Shown: piece after piece, positions 2,346 through 9,645 of the stretch
Layout: each line of letters opens with the position of its first letter
How positions within the stretch are numbered: the first letter of the stretch is position 1
From: Micrococcus sp. 2A
Lineage (GTDB): Bacteria; Actinomycetota; Actinomycetes; Actinomycetales; Micrococcaceae
Reading direction: 5' to 3'
Length of the DNA: 64,000 nucleotides
NCBI RefSeq assembly: GCF_039519235.1
Contig: NZ_CP154351.1
Location: forward strand, 1,240,001 to 1,304,000
Translations under genes and position numbers: made by a program
The notes under the pieces: generated by a model
The model's database searches: none
The model's input: the letters and a program-made list of their open reading frames with translations, nothing else
Told to the model about the DNA's origin: nothing

Positions 2346-3587
2346 TCAGCCGCGCCGCGTGGAGGCCGTCACCGTGAACGTGCGGTTCCGCGCGACCTGC
2401 CGGGTGGGCCCGACGACGGACTGCAGGATCCCGCGGTGGTGCAGGTGCGAGTTCCACACGCACCACAGCTCCCCCTCCGGAGCCAGGACGCGCGCGGCGG
2501 CCTCGAAGAGGCGGTGTGCGACCGTGGGGTCCACCGCGTTGCCGTCGTGGAACGGGGGGTTCAGCAGGATCCGCTCCTCGGAGGCGTCCGCCCACGAGGC
2601 GAGCGCGTCGTCCCGGACGGCCTCGATCCGCTCGGCCAGGCCGTTGGCCTCGGCCGTCGCCCGCGTCGAGGCGACCGCGACGGCGGACTGGTCCGTCGCG
2701 GTGATCCGGGCGTGGGGCCACAGGCGGGCCGCGCCGACCGCGATCAGGCCGTTGCCGCAGCCCAGGTCCACGGCGCGGGCCGGGGGGCGCGGGTCCTCCG
2801 CCAGCGCCTCGAGGAGCAGGCGGGAGCCGGGGTCGGCGTGCGCCCCGCCGAACGTGCCGGCCTCGGCCACGAGGCGCACGGGGCCGATCCCCGGCAGGGC
2901 CGCCGTGGTCTCGTCATGGGGCCGGGGCGCCACGCCCGCGCGGGGCGCGCGGGCCGTGAGCACGCGCGCCTTGCGGCGGCCCCGGTTCGCGACGACGTCC
3001 TGGAAGGACGCCGCCAGCACGGCGTTCATCCGCGGGCTCATGTGCTTGTCCCGGCCCCCGGCCAGCACGACGACGGAGGGGTCCGCGCCGCGCGCCAGGA
3101 TCCGGGCGATCCGGTCCAGCTCGTCGAGGGAGCGGGGCAGGGGGAGCAGCACGGTCCGGGCGCCGCGGACGAGCCGATCGTCGAGCTCCGCGTGCGTCAG
3201 GGACCCGGCGGAGTCCCGCAGCAGGCCCTCCGCGCGCCAGCGCTCCAGGTTCGCCCGCACCGAGCGCTCGGCGGACGCGTCGTCCTGGGCCAGGCGGACG
3301 TCGTGCCCGGCCGCGAGCAGGGGGAGGGTGAGGGCGCCGTGCCGGTCCTCGAGGACCACCACGGGGCCGGCCGCGTGGCCGCACGCCAGCCATCCGGCGA
3401 GGGTGTCGAGGAGCAGCACGTCCGCGGCGTCGTGGGCGGCGCGCCCCGCCTCGGCGGGCAGCGGCCAGCGCGTGAGGGACTCCCACGGCACACCGCGGGT
3501 CAGGTCGTCCGGGAGCCCGCCCAGCACCACGTCGGGGGTCACCCCCGCCGGGACACGGCCGCGGTCATCGTGCGAGGTCGTCGTCAT
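2346..3587 (-). CDS. Class I SAM-dependent methyltransferase, RsmC/RlmG-like
   Basis: Likely a ribosomal RNA guanine-N2 methyltransferase of the RsmC/RlmG type. The 413-residue protein has two halves. The N-terminal half is a degenerate methyltransferase-like region. The C-terminal half has the SAM-binding motif I VDLGCGNGLIAVGAA and the catalytic motif IV LNPPFHDG, typical of N2-guanine methyltransferases, then WCVWNSHLHH near the C-terminus. ATG 3587 was chosen because it gives a natural start (MTTTSHDDRGR) and overlaps the end of the upstream yigZ-like gene by 23 bp, which suggests translational coupling. The exact rRNA target cannot be read from sequence. Confidence 0.8.
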   Translation of the reverse strand: MTTTSHDDRGRVPAGVTPDVVLGGLPDDLTRGVPWESLTRWPLPAEAGRAAHDAADVLLLDTLAGWLACGHAAGPVVVLEDRHGALTLPLLAAGHDVRLAQDDASAERSVRANLERWRAEGLLRDSAGSLTHAELDDRLVRGARTVLLPLPRSLDELDRIARILARGADPSVVVLAGGRDKHMSPRMNAVLAASFQDVVANRGRRKARVLTARAPRAGVAPRPHDETTAALPGIGPVRLVAEAGTFGGAHADPGSRLLLEALAEDPRPPARAVDLGCGNGLIAVGAARLWPHARITATDQSAVAVASTRATAEANGLAERIEAVRDDALASWADASEERILLNPPFHDGNAVDPTVAHRLFEAAARVLAPEGELWCVWNSHLHHRGILQSVVGPTRQVARNRTFTVTASTRRG

Positions 3588-4299
3588 GGTCCACCCAGTC
3601 CTCTCCGACGCGCTCCACGCGTCCGCTGCCCGCGGTGATCCCCGCGAGGCTCTGCTCGAGATCCGCCCACGCGGCGGGGGAGTCCGCCACCGCGACGTGC
3701 AGCCACGCGGCGTCGGCGGCGTAGTCGGTCGCCGTGACGTGCACCCCGGCGGCACGCAGGTCGTTCTCCCAGCGCCCCGCGTCGGCATGGGGCGCGGCGA
3801 TCGTTCCGAGCGCCATGCGCTCCCGGGAGAGCAGCGGCGCCGTGGCCAGGGCGGCGGAGACGGCGTCCGAGTATGCGCGCACCAGGCCGCCCGCCCCGAG
3901 CTTCACGCCCCCGAACCAGCGCGCGACGACGGCGCAGACGTCCGTGAGGTCGGCGTGGCCGGGGCGGGTCTCCCGCTGCACGAGGGCCTCCAGCATGGGG
4001 GTGCCCGCGGTGCCGGCCGGCTCGCCGTCGTCGGAGGAGCGCATGCGCTCCCGGCGCGGGCCCAGGACGAAGGCGCTGCACACGTGCCGCGCGTCGTGGT
4101 GGCGGCGCCGCAGCTCGGCGACCATCTCGCGGGCCTCGTCCTCGTCGGCGACGCGTCCCAGGTAGGCGCGGAAGCGGCTGCGCCGCACCTCCTGCTCGAG
4201 GCGGACCCAGCCCTCGGGGCGCCGTGCGCCGGCGGGGAGCACGGTGCACCGCGCGGCGTCGGCGGGCCCGGGCAGGCCCGGGGCGGGGTCGACAGACAT
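3565..4299 (-). CDS. YigZ family protein (UPF0029/IMPACT-like)
   Basis: A 244-residue YigZ-family protein. The N-terminal UPF0029 (IMPACT) domain is recognised by SRFRAYLGRV, by the HHDARHVCSAFVLG segment, and by the hallmark SSDDGEPAGTAGTPML at about residues 85-100. A smaller ferredoxin-fold C-terminal region follows. The family is widespread and its biochemical role is poorly defined, with links to translation and stress. ATG 4299 is preferred to GTG 4305 because a TACGCT -10 box lies exactly 7 bases upstream, fitting a leaderless message. The gene overlaps the methyltransferase gene by 23 bp and the two likely share one mRNA. Confidence 0.85.
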   Translation of the reverse strand: MSVDPAPGLPGPADAARCTVLPAGARRPEGWVRLEQEVRRSRFRAYLGRVADEDEAREMVAELRRRHHDARHVCSAFVLGPRRERMRSSDDGEPAGTAGTPMLEALVQRETRPGHADLTDVCAVVARWFGGVKLGAGGLVRAYSDAVSAALATAPLLSRERMALGTIAAPHADAGRWENDLRAAGVHVTATDYAADAAWLHVAVADSPAAWADLEQSLAGITAGSGRVERVGEDWVDHDDDLAR

Positions 4300-4306
4300 G
4301 GGCACC

Positions 4307-4312
4307 AGCGTA
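4307..4312 (-). promoter_or_regulatory. Leaderless promoter -10 (TACGCT) of the yigZ-like gene
   Basis: On the minus strand TACGCT is separated by 7 bases from ATG 4299, so transcription would begin at or next to the start codon. Confidence 0.5.
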
Positions 4313-4345
4313 GGCGCTCGGCATGCGCCGACCGCGGGCTCACGC

Positions 4346-4351
4346 TAGCCT
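4346..4351 (+). promoter_or_regulatory. Candidate -10 (TAGCCT) of the BCCT-fusion gene
   Basis: TAGCCT lies 85 bases before ATG 4437 and would give a leader of about 80 bases. It faces away from the yigZ-like promoter 33 bases to the left. Confidence 0.4.
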
Positions 4352-4436
4352 GGTGACCCGTGCCACCCGGCACCGGCCCACCGGTGAGCGCACGAACCGC
4401 CGCCGCGGGCTGGACCCGACCCCGTCTGCGAGACCC

Positions 4437-6812
4437 ATGACCTCCCCGCTCACGCGCCTGCACGACGCCCTCCGGCTCCGCACCAGCCCGGCGATCTTCT
4501 TCGGCTCCCTCGGCCTCATCGTCCTCTTCACCGCGGCCATGGGGCTCTTTCCGGGCCCGGTGCAGCGCACCTTCGGCATCGTCGCCACGTGGCTGCGCTA
4601 CGACGCCGGCTGGATCTACACCCTGAGCCTCACCGTTCTCGTCGTCTTCATGCTCGGCCTGGCCTTCAGCCGCTATGGCCGGGTCAAGCTCGGCGACGAC
4701 GACGCGGTCCCCGAGTACTCCGGCCTCGTCTGGTTCGCCATGATGTTCGCCGCCGGCGTCGGCGCCGTGCTCATGTTCTGGGGGATCGCGGAGCCGATCA
4801 ACCACTACGCGAACCCGCCGCTGGCCGGCACCGAGCCCTTCTCCGACCAGGCGGCGTCGGAGGCGATGAGCATCGCCAACTTCCACTTCGGCATCCACAT
4901 GTGGGCGATCCTGCTGGTGCCGGGGCTGTGCTTCGGCTACTTCACGTACAAGCGCAAGCTGCCCCCGCGCGTGTCGTCGGCGTTCCAGCCGCTGCTGGGC
5001 GACGGCATCCACGGCCCCGTCGGCAAGGCCATCGACATCATCGCGGTGGTCTCCACGGTCTTCGGCCTCGGCGTGTCCGTGGGCCTGGGTGCCATGCAGC
5101 TGAACTCCGGCATGAACGAGGTGCTGGGCACGCCCGTCGCCCCCTGGGTCCAGGCCCTGATCCTCGCCGTGATCACCGCGGTGGGCGTCGCCTCCGTCCT
5201 CGCGGGCATGGACAAGGGCGTCAAGCGCCTCTCCTACGCCAACATCATCCTCGCGATCGCCCTCCTGGTGTACGTCCTCATGTGGGCGGGCTCGAGCATG
5301 GACGTCATCCGCGGGACGGTGCAGGCCGTCGGCGAGTACGTCACCGCACTGCCCCTGCTCTCCACCTACAACGACACCTACAACTCGGGCGCCTGGTCCG
5401 GCGACTGGACGGTCTTCTACTGGGCCTGGACCGTGACGTGGGCCCCGTTCGTCGGCATGTTCTTCGCGCGCATCTCCCGCGGCCGCACCATCCGCCAGTT
5501 CGTCGCCGCCGGACTCGGCCTGCCGACGGCGTTCGTGATCATCTGGATGGGTGTCTACGGCCATTCGGCGTTCCAGTCGGACCGGGCCACGGCCCCGTCT
5601 CCGGGGACGGGCGGAGACCTGACCCGGACCATCGTGGAGGAGGGCAACGTGCAGGCCGCGCTGTTCCAGCACCTGCAGGGCACCCCCCTCTCCCTCGGCG
5701 CCGCCGTCGTCGCGCTCGTGGTCATCTCGCTGTTCTTCATCACCTCGATCGACTCCGGCGCCCTGGTCATGGATGCCATGGTCAACGGCCACGAGGACCC
5801 TGCCCCGCGCATCCAGGGCGTCGTCTGGGCCGTGTCGATCGGCGCCGTGTGCGCCGCGATCATCCTCACGGCGGGGGAGGACGGCCTGGCCGCCCTCCAG
5901 GAGGTCATCATCGTCATCGGCCTGCCGATCCTCATGATCACCGTCGTCCAGGTGGTGCTCCTCGTTCAGGCGCTCCGTGAGGACGCCGGCACCGTCCGTC
6001 CGATGCGCACCCGCCAGTGGAAGAAGGTGCTCCCCGCCGAGGAGTACCGCCGCCGCGCCGCGGAGGACGGCGCCGACGTGTCCGACTACGTCGTGCGCCC
6101 CGAGTTCGAGGTGGGCACGGAGCCGGAGTACGACACCCACACGCCGAAGACGTGGCACCAGCAGCGTGCGGCCGCCGAACACGCCCTCCTGACGGTCGGC
6201 CTGACCGGCGGCGTCGCGGCCGGCCGGACCGCGGTGGGGGAGGAGCTCGAGCGGCTCGGTGCCGTCGTCGTCGAGTTCGACGACCTCATGGGCGAGGTCC
6301 TCGTGCCCGGCAGTGCCGTGCTCGACGAGCTGCGCGAGGTGTTCGGAGAGGAGATCGTGCACGCGGACGGCTCCCTCGACGTGCGCGCCCTCAACCGCCT
6401 GACCACGGAGAGCACGACGGCGCGCCGCCGCATGTACGAGATCGTCGCGCCGGCCGTGCGGACCGAAGCCGACGCCCGGGCCAGGGCCGTCGGGGAGGAC
6501 GCCGTGCTGGTGATGGACCTCGCGCTCCTGACCGAGACCGGCTCCGCCCGCGAGTTCGACCAGGTGCTCGCGGTCTCCGCCCCGGCCGAGCTGCGCGTCG
6601 CCCGCCTCATGGACTCCCACGCGATGAGCCGCGAGCGGGCCTGGGCGTTCATCGACGAGGAGGCGGCGGACGAGGAGCGCGCCGAGGTCGCGGACACGGT
6701 GCTCGAGAACGCCGGCACCCTCGAGGAGCTCCGCGACGAGGTCCGGGCATACTGGGACGCGAGGATCCAGCCCGTCGTCGACGCCGCCGGCGCCTCCCAC
6801 CCTGCCCGCTGA
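4437..6812 (+). CDS. BCCT-family transporter fused to a degenerate CoaE-like domain
   Basis: 791 residues. Residues about 15-515 form a betaine/choline/carnitine transporter with the expected 12 membrane segments, the signature GVGAVLMFWGIAEP (about 105-118), the substrate-site segment FYWAWTVTWAPFVGMF (about 326-341) and SIDSGALVMDAM. This part should import a quaternary amine with Na+ or H+. After a hydrophilic linker (about 515-582), residues 583-780 align end to end with dephospho-CoA kinase: GLTGGVAAGRT starts at 588 and MDLALLTETG follows. Key kinase residues are changed: the P-loop Lys is Arg597 and the HP motif is AP at 671-672. So the domain may bind a nucleotide or only a partner, but is probably not a kinase. 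True coaE follows after 17 bases. In BetP the cytoplasmic C-terminus senses osmotic state, so the extra domain may be regulatory; that is inference. Confidence 0.85.
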   Translation: MTSPLTRLHDALRLRTSPAIFFGSLGLIVLFTAAMGLFPGPVQRTFGIVATWLRYDAGWIYTLSLTVLVVFMLGLAFSRYGRVKLGDDDAVPEYSGLVWFAMMFAAGVGAVLMFWGIAEPINHYANPPLAGTEPFSDQAASEAMSIANFHFGIHMWAILLVPGLCFGYFTYKRKLPPRVSSAFQPLLGDGIHGPVGKAIDIIAVVSTVFGLGVSVGLGAMQLNSGMNEVLGTPVAPWVQALILAVITAVGVASVLAGMDKGVKRLSYANIILAIALLVYVLMWAGSSMDVIRGTVQAVGEYVTALPLLSTYNDTYNSGAWSGDWTVFYWAWTVTWAPFVGMFFARISRGRTIRQFVAAGLGLPTAFVIIWMGVYGHSAFQSDRATAPSPGTGGDLTRTIVEEGNVQAALFQHLQGTPLSLGAAVVALVVISLFFITSIDSGALVMDAMVNGHEDPAPRIQGVVWAVSIGAVCAAIILTAGEDGLAALQEVIIVIGLPILMITVVQVVLLVQALREDAGTVRPMRTRQWKKVLPAEEYRRRAAEDGADVSDYVVRPEFEVGTEPEYDTHTPKTWHQQRAAAEHALLTVGLTGGVAAGRTAVGEELERLGAVVVEFDDLMGEVLVPGSAVLDELREVFGEEIVHADGSLDVRALNRLTTESTTARRRMYEIVAPAVRTEADARARAVGEDAVLVMDLALLTETGSAREFDQVLAVSAPAELRVARLMDSHAMSRERAWAFIDEEAADEERAEVADTVLENAGTLEELRDEVRAYWDARIQPVVDAAGASHPAR

Positions 6813-6829
6813 GTCCTCCAGGAGAGTCG

Positions 6830-7468
6830 ATGTCCGAGCCCCCCGCCCCCGTCGCCCACCGTCCCCGCGTCCACGTGGGGCTCACCGGGGGCATCGCGGC
6901 CGGCAAGTCGGCCGTGGCCCGGGTGCTCGAGGAGCGCGGCGCCCTGCTGGTGGACTCGGACGCACTGGCCCGCGCCGTCCTCGAGAAGGGGACGGAGGGC
7001 CTCGCCGCCGTCCAGGACGCGTTCGGGGACCGGGTGATCACCGCCGACGGGGAGCTCGACCGGGTCGCGCTGGCCCGCATCGTGTTCGGCGACGCGGGCC
7101 AGCGGGAGCGGCTCAACCGAATCGTGCACCCCCGGGTGCGGGAGATGGCCCGCGGGATCGTGGCCGAGGCGGGCCCGGACGCCGTCGTGGTCCAGGACGT
7201 GCCGCTGCTCGTGGAGACCGGCCAGGCGGACGCCTTCGACCTCGTCGTCGTCGTGGAGGCCCCGCTCGAGGAGCGGATCCGGCGCATGACGCAGGACCGG
7301 GGGATGAGCCGGGAGGACGCCGAGGCGCGCATCGCCGCGCAGGCGAGCGACGCGCAGCGCCGCGCGGCCGCCGACGTCGTGATCGTCAACGACGCCGACC
7401 TCACGCGCCTGGCCTCCGCCGCGAACCAGGTGTGGGACCGGTTCCTCGCTGCGCCCGCTGCGCCGTGA
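6830..7468 (+). CDS. coaE: Dephospho-CoA kinase
   Basis: CoaE phosphorylates the ribose 3'-OH of dephospho-CoA with ATP, the last step of CoA synthesis. The 212-residue protein has an intact P-loop GLTGGIAAGKS at 17-27 with Lys26, the acidic DSDAL segment after strand 2, the IVHP motif at 98-101, QDVPLLVETG, and the lid segment RRMTQDRGMSREDAEARI. Start ATG 6830 has AGGAGA just upstream. It lies 17 bases after the BCCT fusion gene, which carries a diverged copy of this same fold, so the two were probably made by tandem duplication and are likely co-transcribed. uvrB follows behind its own promoter. Confidence 0.95.
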   Translation: MSEPPAPVAHRPRVHVGLTGGIAAGKSAVARVLEERGALLVDSDALARAVLEKGTEGLAAVQDAFGDRVITADGELDRVALARIVFGDAGQRERLNRIVHPRVREMARGIVAEAGPDAVVVQDVPLLVETGQADAFDLVVVVEAPLEERIRRMTQDRGMSREDAEARIAAQASDAQRRAAADVVIVNDADLTRLASAANQVWDRFLAAPAAP

Positions 7469-7493
7469 CGCGCTGACGCGTCGGCGGCGCGCG

Positions 7494-7499
7494 TAGGGT
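7494..7499 (+). promoter_or_regulatory. Leaderless promoter -10 (TAGGGT) of uvrB
   Basis: TAGGGT is followed by 7 bases and then ATG 7507, with no ribosome-binding site between them. I see no LexA-type palindrome here. Confidence 0.55.
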
Positions 7500-7506
7500 T
7501 CTGCCC

Positions 7507-9645
7507 ATGAGCCTGGCCAAGCAGATCAACCGCGTCGTCGCGCCGTTCGAGGTCGTCTCCCCGTTCGAGCCCTCAGGCGACCAGCCCGCCGCCATCGCGG
7601 AGCTCGCCGAGCGCGTCCAGGCGGGGGAGAAGGACGTCGTCCTCCTGGGCGCCACCGGCACCGGCAAGTCGGCCACGTCCGCGTGGCTGATCGAGAGGCT
7701 GCAGCGGCCCACCCTCGTGATGGTGCAGAACAAGACGCTCGCGGCACAGCTGGCCAACGAGTTCCGTGAGCTGCTGCCGAACAACGCGGTCGAGTACTTC
7801 GTCTCCTACTACGACTACTACCAGCCCGAGGCCTACGTCCCGCAGTCGGACACCTTCATCGAGAAGGACTCCTCCGTCAACGAGGAGGTGGAGCGGCTGC
7901 GCCACTCCGCCACCAACGCCCTCCTCACACGCCGGGACGTCGTGGTGGTGGCCACCGTCTCCTGCATCTACGGCCTCGGCACGCCCGAGGAGTACATCGA
8001 GCAGATGGTCACCCTGCGCCGCGGCGGGGAGATGGACCGGGACGCCCTGCTGCGCCAGTTCGTGCAGATGCAGTACGTGCGCAACGACATGGACTTCCAC
8101 CGCGGCACGTTCCGGGTGCGCGGGGACACGGTGGAGATCATCCCCATGTACGAGGAGCTCGCGGTGCGCATCGAGTTCTTCGGGGACGAGATCGAGTCCA
8201 TCCAGACCCTCCACCCCCTCACCGGCCAGGTCGTGCGGGAGGAGACGGAGATGTACATCTTCCCGGCCTCCCACTACGTGGCCGGGGACACGCGCATGGG
8301 CAAGGCGATCACGTCGATCGAGGACGAGCTGCGCGAGCGTCTCCAGGAGCTGGAGTCCCAGGACAAGCTGCTCGAGGCCCAGCGCCTGCGGATGCGCACC
8401 ACGTACGACCTCGAGATGATGCAGCAGATGGGCTACTGCAACGGGATCGAGAACTACTCCCGGCACATCGACGGGCGGCCCGCCGGCTCGGCCCCCCACT
8501 GCCTGCTGGACTACTTCCCGGACGACTTCCTGCTCGTGGTGGACGAGTCCCACGTGACCATCCCGCAGATCGGCGCGATGTACGAGGGGGACATGTCCCG
8601 CAAGCGCACGCTCGTGGAGCACGGCTTCCGCCTGCCCTCGGCCATGGACAACCGGCCGCTGAAGTGGGACGAGTTCCTCGAGCGGATCGGGCAGACCGTC
8701 TACATGTCCGCCACGCCCGGCACCTACGAGCTCTCCCAGGCGGACGGCTGCGTGGAGCAGATCATCCGCCCCACCGGGCTCGTGGACCCGAAGATCGTGG
8801 TCAAGCCGACGCAGGGCCAGATCGACGACCTGCTCGAGCAGATCCGCTTCCGCGTCGAGAAGGACGAGCGCGTCCTCGTGACCACGCTGACCAAGCGCAT
8901 GGCCGAGGACCTCACCGACTACCTGCTCGAGGCGGGTGTGAAGGTCGAGTACCTCCACTCGGACGTGGACACCCTGCGCCGCGTGGAGCTGCTGCGCGAG
9001 CTGCGCCAGGGCGTGTTCGACGTCCTCGTGGGCATCAACCTGCTGCGCGAGGGCCTGGACCTGCCCGAGGTCTCGCTCGTGGCCATCCTGGACGCGGACA
9101 AGGAGGGCTTCCTGCGCTCCTCCACCTCGCTCATCCAGACCATCGGCCGCGCGGCCCGCAACGTCTCCGGCGAGGTGCACATGTACGCCGACCGCGTCAC
9201 GGACTCCATGCGGCAGGCCATCGAGGAGACCGACCGCCGGCGCGCCGTGCAGGTGGCGTACAACGAGGAGCACGGGATCGACCCGCAGCCGCTGCGCAAG
9301 AGGATCGCGGACATCACCGACCAGCTGGCCCGCGAGGACGCGGACACCGCCGATTTCCTCAAGGGCATGGGGGGCGTGAAGTCCGGCTTCGACTACGGCA
9401 TGGGCCACCGCGGGCTCTCCTCCGTCCGCGAGGGCGCGGAGCGGGCGGGCACGGGCTCCGACGGCGACGCGCCCGCCGTCGGAGCCGGGTCCATCCCCGC
9501 CAAGGACCTCCAGGACCTCATCGAACAGATGTCCGCCCAGATGCACCAGGCCGCCACCGAGCTGCAGTTCGAGCTCGCGGCGCGCCTGCGCGACGAGGTC
9601 GCGGAGCTGAAGAAGGAGCTGCGCCAGATGGAGCGCGAACGGTGA
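7507..9645 (+). CDS. uvrB: Excinuclease ABC subunit B
   Basis: UvrB is the damage-verification helicase of nucleotide excision repair: it is loaded by UvrA and then recruits UvrC. The 712-residue protein has Walker A GATGTGKS at 48-55, the DNA-gripping beta-hairpin region [12 protein letters not shown] near 102-113, the DEAD-like [11 protein letters not shown], and helicase motifs V and VI ([24 protein letters not shown]). The C-terminal UVR domain (about 672-708, [14 protein letters not shown]) contacts UvrC. The linker before it is longer than in E. coli (673 residues) and Gly/Ala-rich. Its TGA overlaps the GTG of the MFS gene by 4 bp, so both are probably made from one message. uvrA and uvrC lie 11-17 kb away in the same window. 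Confidence 0.97.

Follow-up and report, generated by a model that had tools for sequence, protein, structure and literature searches.

The fusion gene and its neighbourhood

We analysed a window of 64,000 nucleotides from the genome of Micrococcus sp. 2A (contig NZ_CP154351.1, positions 1,240,001 to 1,304,000, forward strand), in which a BCCT transporter gene extends without interruption into a CoaE-like domain and is followed directly by a separate, canonical coaE gene (Table 1). The ORF scan of the window shows the fusion frame open from an in-frame ATG at 4323 to the stop at 6812; ATG 4437 is taken as the start because 15 of the 21 matches in the protein search are 787-792 aa long. The original prediction recognised the fusion, and Pfam bears it out: in a single open frame, an entire BCCT transporter is joined through a linker to a full-length CoaE-like domain. 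What the prediction did not mention is the canonical coaE gene next door and the altered active site of the fused domain.

Table 1. Features of the BCCT-CoaE locus, in window coordinates.
Feature	Coordinates	Strand	Remarks
BCCT-CoaE fusion gene	4437..6812	+	791 aa plus stop, from ATG 4437
BCCT transporter domain, residues 20-516	4494..5984	+	PF02028, 522 bits (cut-off 27), whole profile
Linker	5985..6176	+	also in unfused orthologs, 57-67% identical
CoaE-like domain, residues 581-791, catalytic motifs eroded	6177..6809	+	PF01121 at residues 586-763
Arg597 codon, replacing the Walker-A lysine (Lys14 of M. tuberculosis CoaE)	6225..6227	+	alignment
Trp736 codon, fused-domain-specific residue in the lid region	6642..6644	+	W in 58/58 fused domains, 0/64 separate CoaE
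17-nt gap with AGGAGAG, fusion stop to coaE start	6813..6829	+	
Canonical coaE, 212 aa	6830..7468	+	PF01121, 188 bits; TIGR00152 and PRK03333 above cut-off; scored motifs all intact

BCCT and CoaE are the only Pfam domains of the fusion protein, UPF0157 being absent. The fused domain spans positions 2-179 of the 180 in the PF01121 profile (122 bits, cut-off 27) and is, judging by this match, a full CoaE fold. It also scores above the TIGR00152 (CoaE) cut-off (87.4 against 65.55), and the fusion protein stays below that of PRK03333, the CoaE-UPF0157 type (163 against 215). On the transporter side, TIGR00842 (BCCT) is exceeded (467.9 bits, cut-off 407.55) and the glycine betaine BCCT equivalog NF047988 is not reached (443, cut-off 650). 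The statement of the original prediction that no standard BCCT family member is known to have such a domain is supported by the NCBIfam BCCT profiles, which match the transporter half alone. Third-position GC is nearly uniform across the fused CoaE domain (0.971), the BCCT half (0.973) and the separate coaE (0.976).

The gene upstream, divergent to the fusion, belongs to UPF0029 (YigZ-type, 3565-4305), and rpsA lies at 712-2238. After coaE, the ORF at 7507-9645 reads by eye as uvrB (relatives 74-91% match). The whole genome holds two CoaE matches and two BCCT matches.

For site mapping in the transporter half we used the published BetP residue numbering, from which the chain index of the aligned structure (3p03) is offset by 29. 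In this alignment BetP Trp189, Trp194 and Trp374 correspond to Phe151, Trp156 and Thr332, and Thr332 is invariant in 56 fused proteins and 18 unfused relatives. F, T and S residues conserved in the fusion align to the sodium (Na2) site of BetP. The transporter half would thus be coupled to sodium and have a substrate site unlike that of BetP, both before and after the fusion.

Distribution of the fusion

With three candidates scored per genome, the fusion turns up in 27 of the 295 genomes sampled from the family: all 11 of the source genus Micrococcus (g1), 7 of 8 in g4, read as Citricoccus-like from one label (P0025), 9 of 24 in g6, and none of 252 in the other 29 genera. We read g6 as Kocuria from two matches (the BCCT half of Kocuria palustris L089 is that of G250, and the motifs of Kocuria salsicia L088 are those of G069) and, likewise, g3 as Rothia from Rothia terrae L090, whose BCCT half is that of G265. 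As a cross-check, two CoaE matches occur in just three further genomes (G067, G033 and G210), none of which has a fused copy. Two of the 11 Micrococcus genomes (G002 and G010) carry a second fused copy in tandem. No stop or frameshift separates the two parts in any of the 11, the source genome and one conspecific included; the condition under which the original prediction would have fallen is thus not seen in the other Micrococcus genomes.

Outside the family, one of the 393 other genomes of the class sample, with two candidates scored per genome, is fused (G421, from another family). The protein searches, each scoring about 8000 candidates, added fused proteins whose source labels are Luteococcus, Dermacoccus and Microbacterium sp. 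A93, as well as Luteimonas sp. JM171, a label that belongs to a different phylum. Two of the searches yielded 105 proteins, redundant and some partial sequences included, of which 81 match BCCT, linker and CoaE alike. The taxonomic spread of the architecture, which the original prediction had proposed to survey, is therefore three genera plus other lineages. In a search of 72,556 records for plasmid-borne copies, no place covered 80% of the query.

Some loci depart from the common arrangement. G109 of g6 (L073, 1444-3699) has the lone truncated CoaE domain among the 27 fused family genomes. G006 (L209) holds an unfused bcct with linker (3797-5476) and a fused copy (6550-8898), with yigZ between them. 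In a draft of Kocuria atrinae (L091, 5959-8969) the BCCT part, the fused-type CoaE domain and coaE are spread over several overlapping frames, a picture that either sequencing error or decay would give.

In all 27 fused family genomes a separate, motif-intact coaE adjoins the fusion, and in 20 of the 27 loci examined (G421 and K. salsicia included) a coaE start overlaps the fusion stop, the starts in this count being candidate codons. The overlap is 4 nt in G001, G002, G005, G009, G043, G089, G108, G124 and G151, 8 nt in G013, G137 and G195, 8 or 17 nt in G266, and 32-35 nt in G069, G090, G152, G175, G185, G233 and K. salsicia. A further candidate coaE start, just past the fusion stop, is present in several of the overlapping loci. 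In G000, G421, G003, G004, G006, G007 and G010 a gap of 16-188 nt lies between the two genes. Because the candidate reading frame of coaE overlaps that of the fusion in most of these loci, their synthesis is likely to be coupled.

Origin of the fusion

Phylogenies were built for both halves. The CoaE tree comprises 89 domains, five of the initial 94 rows having been dropped before it was built (the truncated domain of G109 and the two copies of each of two near-identical genomes), and a single branch (support 99/96) parts its 27 fused domains from all the others. For the BCCT tree, 104 fused sequences were reduced to 56 at 96% identity and combined with 18 unfused ones, short-BCCT proteins being left out; the 56 fused halves again form one side of a branch (100/100). 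Several independent fusions are disfavoured because the trees of both halves show one origin. The fusion thus apparently occurred once, in an organism that was ancestral to Micrococcus, the Citricoccus-like genus and Kocuria or that donated it to their lineages.

The nearest relatives of the fused BCCT halves are unfused orthologs, first of the Kocuria palustris type and then of Rothia. The linker is already present in the unfused Rothia orthologs and in one of the two Kocuria palustris BCCT genes; linker-bearing BCCT genes that lack the CoaE domain are found in L074, L089 (first copy), L090 and L092-L095, with 57-67% linker identity. G142 has the order yigZ, bcct with linker, coaE, uvrB, that is, the order of the fused loci minus the extra CoaE domain. 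The order in Rothia (G067) is coaE first, then bcct. In G421 (L210, 3678-6696) the fusion lies directly before its own coaE and uvrB while the upstream genes differ, which fits a transfer between families. As a separate observation, a bcct in G011 (L208, 1805-3797) changes frame near its end, directly before the single coaE, and has the appearance of an unfused relative in decay.

Most simply, coaE was duplicated in tandem next to bcct and the upstream copy was then fused. The data support a history in which a coaE duplicated next to a pre-existing bcct gave one copy to the transporter as its C-terminal domain, the other remaining the normal enzyme; the fused copy then shed catalytic elements that differ from lineage to lineage, while staying under purifying selection and beside coaE.

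Erosion of the active site

Seven sites were scored, each invariant in 64 of 64 separate CoaE proteins, a reference set that includes a few near-copies and leans canonical, 30 of its members being the 30 best-scoring matches of the family search. Four of the sites are M. tuberculosis CoaE residues whose roles are given in PMC3019153 (Lys14, Asp32, Leu114 and Arg140) and were mapped via an alignment with 6n39 and the mutagenesis primers of the same paper; the other three (His671, Pro696 and Gln742) were chosen on the very alignment that was scored. Of the 58 non-redundant fused domains, 11 keep all seven, every one of them from the Citricoccus-like clade; among the separate CoaE the figure is 64 of 64. 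Among the 58, Arg140 is kept in 58, Asp32 in 49, Leu114 in 43, Lys14 in 34, His671 in 24, Pro696 in 23 and Gln742 in 20, with fewest changes on the BCCT tree of 0, 2, 7, 5, 2, 3 and 1, respectively.

In the window domain, Arg597 stands for Lys14, A671 for the histidine of the HP motif, A696 for the proline of the PLL motif and E742 for the lid glutamine; D615 and R723, the equivalents of Asp32 and Arg140, are retained. The losses differ between lineages: the lysine has become arginine in G266 and in the M. luteus and Luteimonas-labelled groups, and threonine or alanine in the Luteococcus-labelled group; the aspartate is lost in Kocuria and in two Micrococcus-type rows; and all 13 Micrococcus rows are without the histidine, proline and glutamine, several of them keeping the lysine. 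The P-loop glycines are invariant in the fused domains.

As regards the sensor role suggested by the original prediction, these glycines and the invariant ATP-site arginine would fit nucleotide binding, but the changes at 671, 696 and 742 argue against a normal dephospho-CoA site in the source species, and a partnership with CoaE competes with it as an explanation. The Citricoccus-like domain may still be an enzyme because its motifs are intact.

Selection on the fused domain

The fused domain gave pN/pS values of 0.07-0.63 in 14 genome pairs, one of them intraspecies and some sharing branches. Neutral simulation of the window domain at its own GC content gave medians between 1.34 and 1.51, with 5% points at 1.02-1.15, and the comparison excludes a recent pseudogene. 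The open frame taken by itself was dropped as an argument for retention, since under the GC-rich model about 75-77% of the simulated neutral domains remain without a stop (1-12% under an equal-rates model). Relative to the neighbouring gene the picture varies with the lineage: in Micrococcus, dN/dS of the fused domain is above that of the separate coaE in 6 of 8 pairs (for G000 paired with G002, G005 and G009, 0.32-0.34 against 0.14-0.22), and in g4 and g6 it is below in 5 of 6 pairs.

Two residues set the fused domains apart. Trp736 is exclusive to them (Table 1), and Asp740 is present in 56 of 58 fused domains against 10 of 64 separate CoaE; they lie 13 and 17 residues past R723. Since the lid of E. 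coli CoaE is Thr141-Ile155 (PMC3019153), Trp736 would sit in the lid and Asp740 just past it. The low pN/pS, the invariance of Trp736 and of the Arg140 equivalent, and the loss of catalytic sites together show that the fused domain is constrained and indicate that, in most lineages, the constraint is not for the kinase reaction.

Possible roles of the fused domain

The reading we favour, to which we give about an even chance, is that the fused domain is mostly non-catalytic and regulates BCCT transport. The Micrococcus domain would act as a non-catalytic (pseudokinase) cytoplasmic domain in the place of the BetP regulatory tail; it would bind a nucleotide, a remaining CoA-pathway ligand or an oligomeric partner, and binding would alter how the BCCT trimer is gated or how stable it is. 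As far as its invariant ATP-site arginine, P-loop glycines and tryptophan indicate, the domain could bind CoaE, the transporter, a nucleotide or another copy of itself. Synthesis appears coupled with that of coaE, and the status of CoA or adenylate metabolism may accordingly be the signal. BetP is a homotrimer whose engineered monomer loses regulation (PMC6406002), fused nucleotide-binding domains are described as regulators of transporters (PMC10710835), and three CoaE domains beneath a BCCT trimer would match it in symmetry.

Next in our ranking, though rather unlikely, comes a partnership with CoaE: the domain would serve the adjoining enzyme as a regulatory subunit or as a scaffold at the membrane, a hetero-oligomer would hold CoaE at the membrane or in a dormant trimer, and the transporter would control CoA synthesis instead of being controlled by it. 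The separate coaE beside the fusion in every fused family genome and in G421, as well as the candidate overlap of the two genes in 20 of 27 loci, speak for it, as do the trimeric state of the BCCT proteins BetP and CaiT (PMC6406002) and the behaviour of M. tuberculosis CoaE, a mixture of trimer and monomer in which the monomer is active and to which dephospho-CoA brings a shift towards monomer (PMC3123319). Yet E. coli CoaE is monomeric in solution and forms a trimer only in a sulphate-containing crystal (PMC3123319), and adjacency could persist merely since the duplication placed the fusion there. An elaboration that we hold to be improbable is that the BCCT trimer, by presenting its three CoaE-derived pseudokinase domains, templates a dormant trimer of CoaE, capturing co-made CoaE and releasing active monomer upon a transport, osmotic or nucleotide change; if it were true, CoA synthesis would be gated at the membrane.

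It is also doubtful, and in our ranking placed below the partnership with CoaE, that the domain takes no part in signalling and is either a structural tail (for stability, or to clamp the trimer) or a passenger in slow decay. The repeated loss of active-site residues (at fewest five changes at the lysine and seven at the Leu114 position), the dN/dS above coaE in most Micrococcus pairs and the truncated domain of G109 are in line with such a role; a pure passenger, however, accords poorly with purifying selection in 14 of 14 pairs, with the invariant W736 and R723 and with the presence of the domain in every Micrococcus genome.

That the domain is still a dephospho-CoA kinase, which would make the protein a bifunctional transporter-enzyme, we consider improbable, and we rank it below the structural reading. 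The fully intact domains of the Citricoccus-like clade, the TIGR00152 score of the window domain and its retained Asp32 and Arg140 equivalents, catalytic according to PMC3019153, are what it has in its favour. Positions such as Lys14 tolerate substitution to some extent (PMC3019153), and for this reason a weak residual activity is possible. Against it, the window protein has replaced the lysine, histidine, proline and glutamine that all 64 separate CoaE proteins keep, and a complete coaE adjoins the fusion. An assembly join or annotation artefact, finally, can be dismissed, the identical architecture recurring in independent genomes, 27 of the 295 in the family, and in 81 of the 105 retrieved proteins.

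Relation to known systems

The fusion protein shares with BetP and the BCCT family (PF02028, TIGR00842) a complete transporter half, and its extra domain lies where BetP has its regulatory C-terminus; it differs in that a CoaE fold of about 200 residues takes the place of a short tail and in that the aromatic box is altered (W189 -> F, W374 -> T). To our knowledge, no other BCCT protein has a domain from CoA biosynthesis. CoaE is one domain of a larger actinobacterial protein in the M. tuberculosis CoaE-UPF0157 protein (PRK03333 type) as well, but the partner there is UPF0157, which lies at the C-terminus, whereas here CoaE is eroded and itself C-terminal to a transporter. In bifunctional CoA synthase (2f6r), two enzymes of one pathway, CoaE is likewise part of a larger protein, but one without a transporter. 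PMC2765170 assigns the UPF0157 domain of M. tuberculosis CoaE a part in folding.

Transporters that bear a fused regulatory domain are already known as a kind (PMC10710835). Transporters with CBS, UspA or CNBD domains resemble the fusion in having a plug-in cytoplasmic domain, usually C-terminal; the accessible part of that article names no CoaE domain, whereas here the domain derives from the last enzyme of CoA synthesis. We found no description of a CoaE-derived BCCT domain with repeated catalytic loss in open-licence PMC papers. The orthologs form a rare natural series, in which an enzyme domain, joined to the transporter in apparently a single event, stays intact in one clade and has been stripped of different active-site residues in others, and with them the transition from enzyme to regulator becomes directly testable.

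The fusion also bears on annotation. Fusions of 789-791 aa are named 'dephospho-CoA kinase' at source (P0004, P0006, P0009 and P0015), among them a cluster of 565 member sequences named for Micrococcus luteus (P0004); other sources name P0014 and P0024 as betaine or ectoine transporters. The kinase label would be explained by the eroded domain still passing TIGR00152, and on transporter fusions it misleads metabolic models and target lists.

Other unusual CoaE fusions appear in precomputed Pfam annotation, namely CoaE with S1 domains in a protein of 765 aa (P0084) and CoaE in a PmbA/TldD-named protein (P0122). In a further protein of 603 aa (P0003), which perhaps comes from a chimeric contig, a fused CoaE domain of the Micrococcus type is attached to a HAD-type domain (PF13344).
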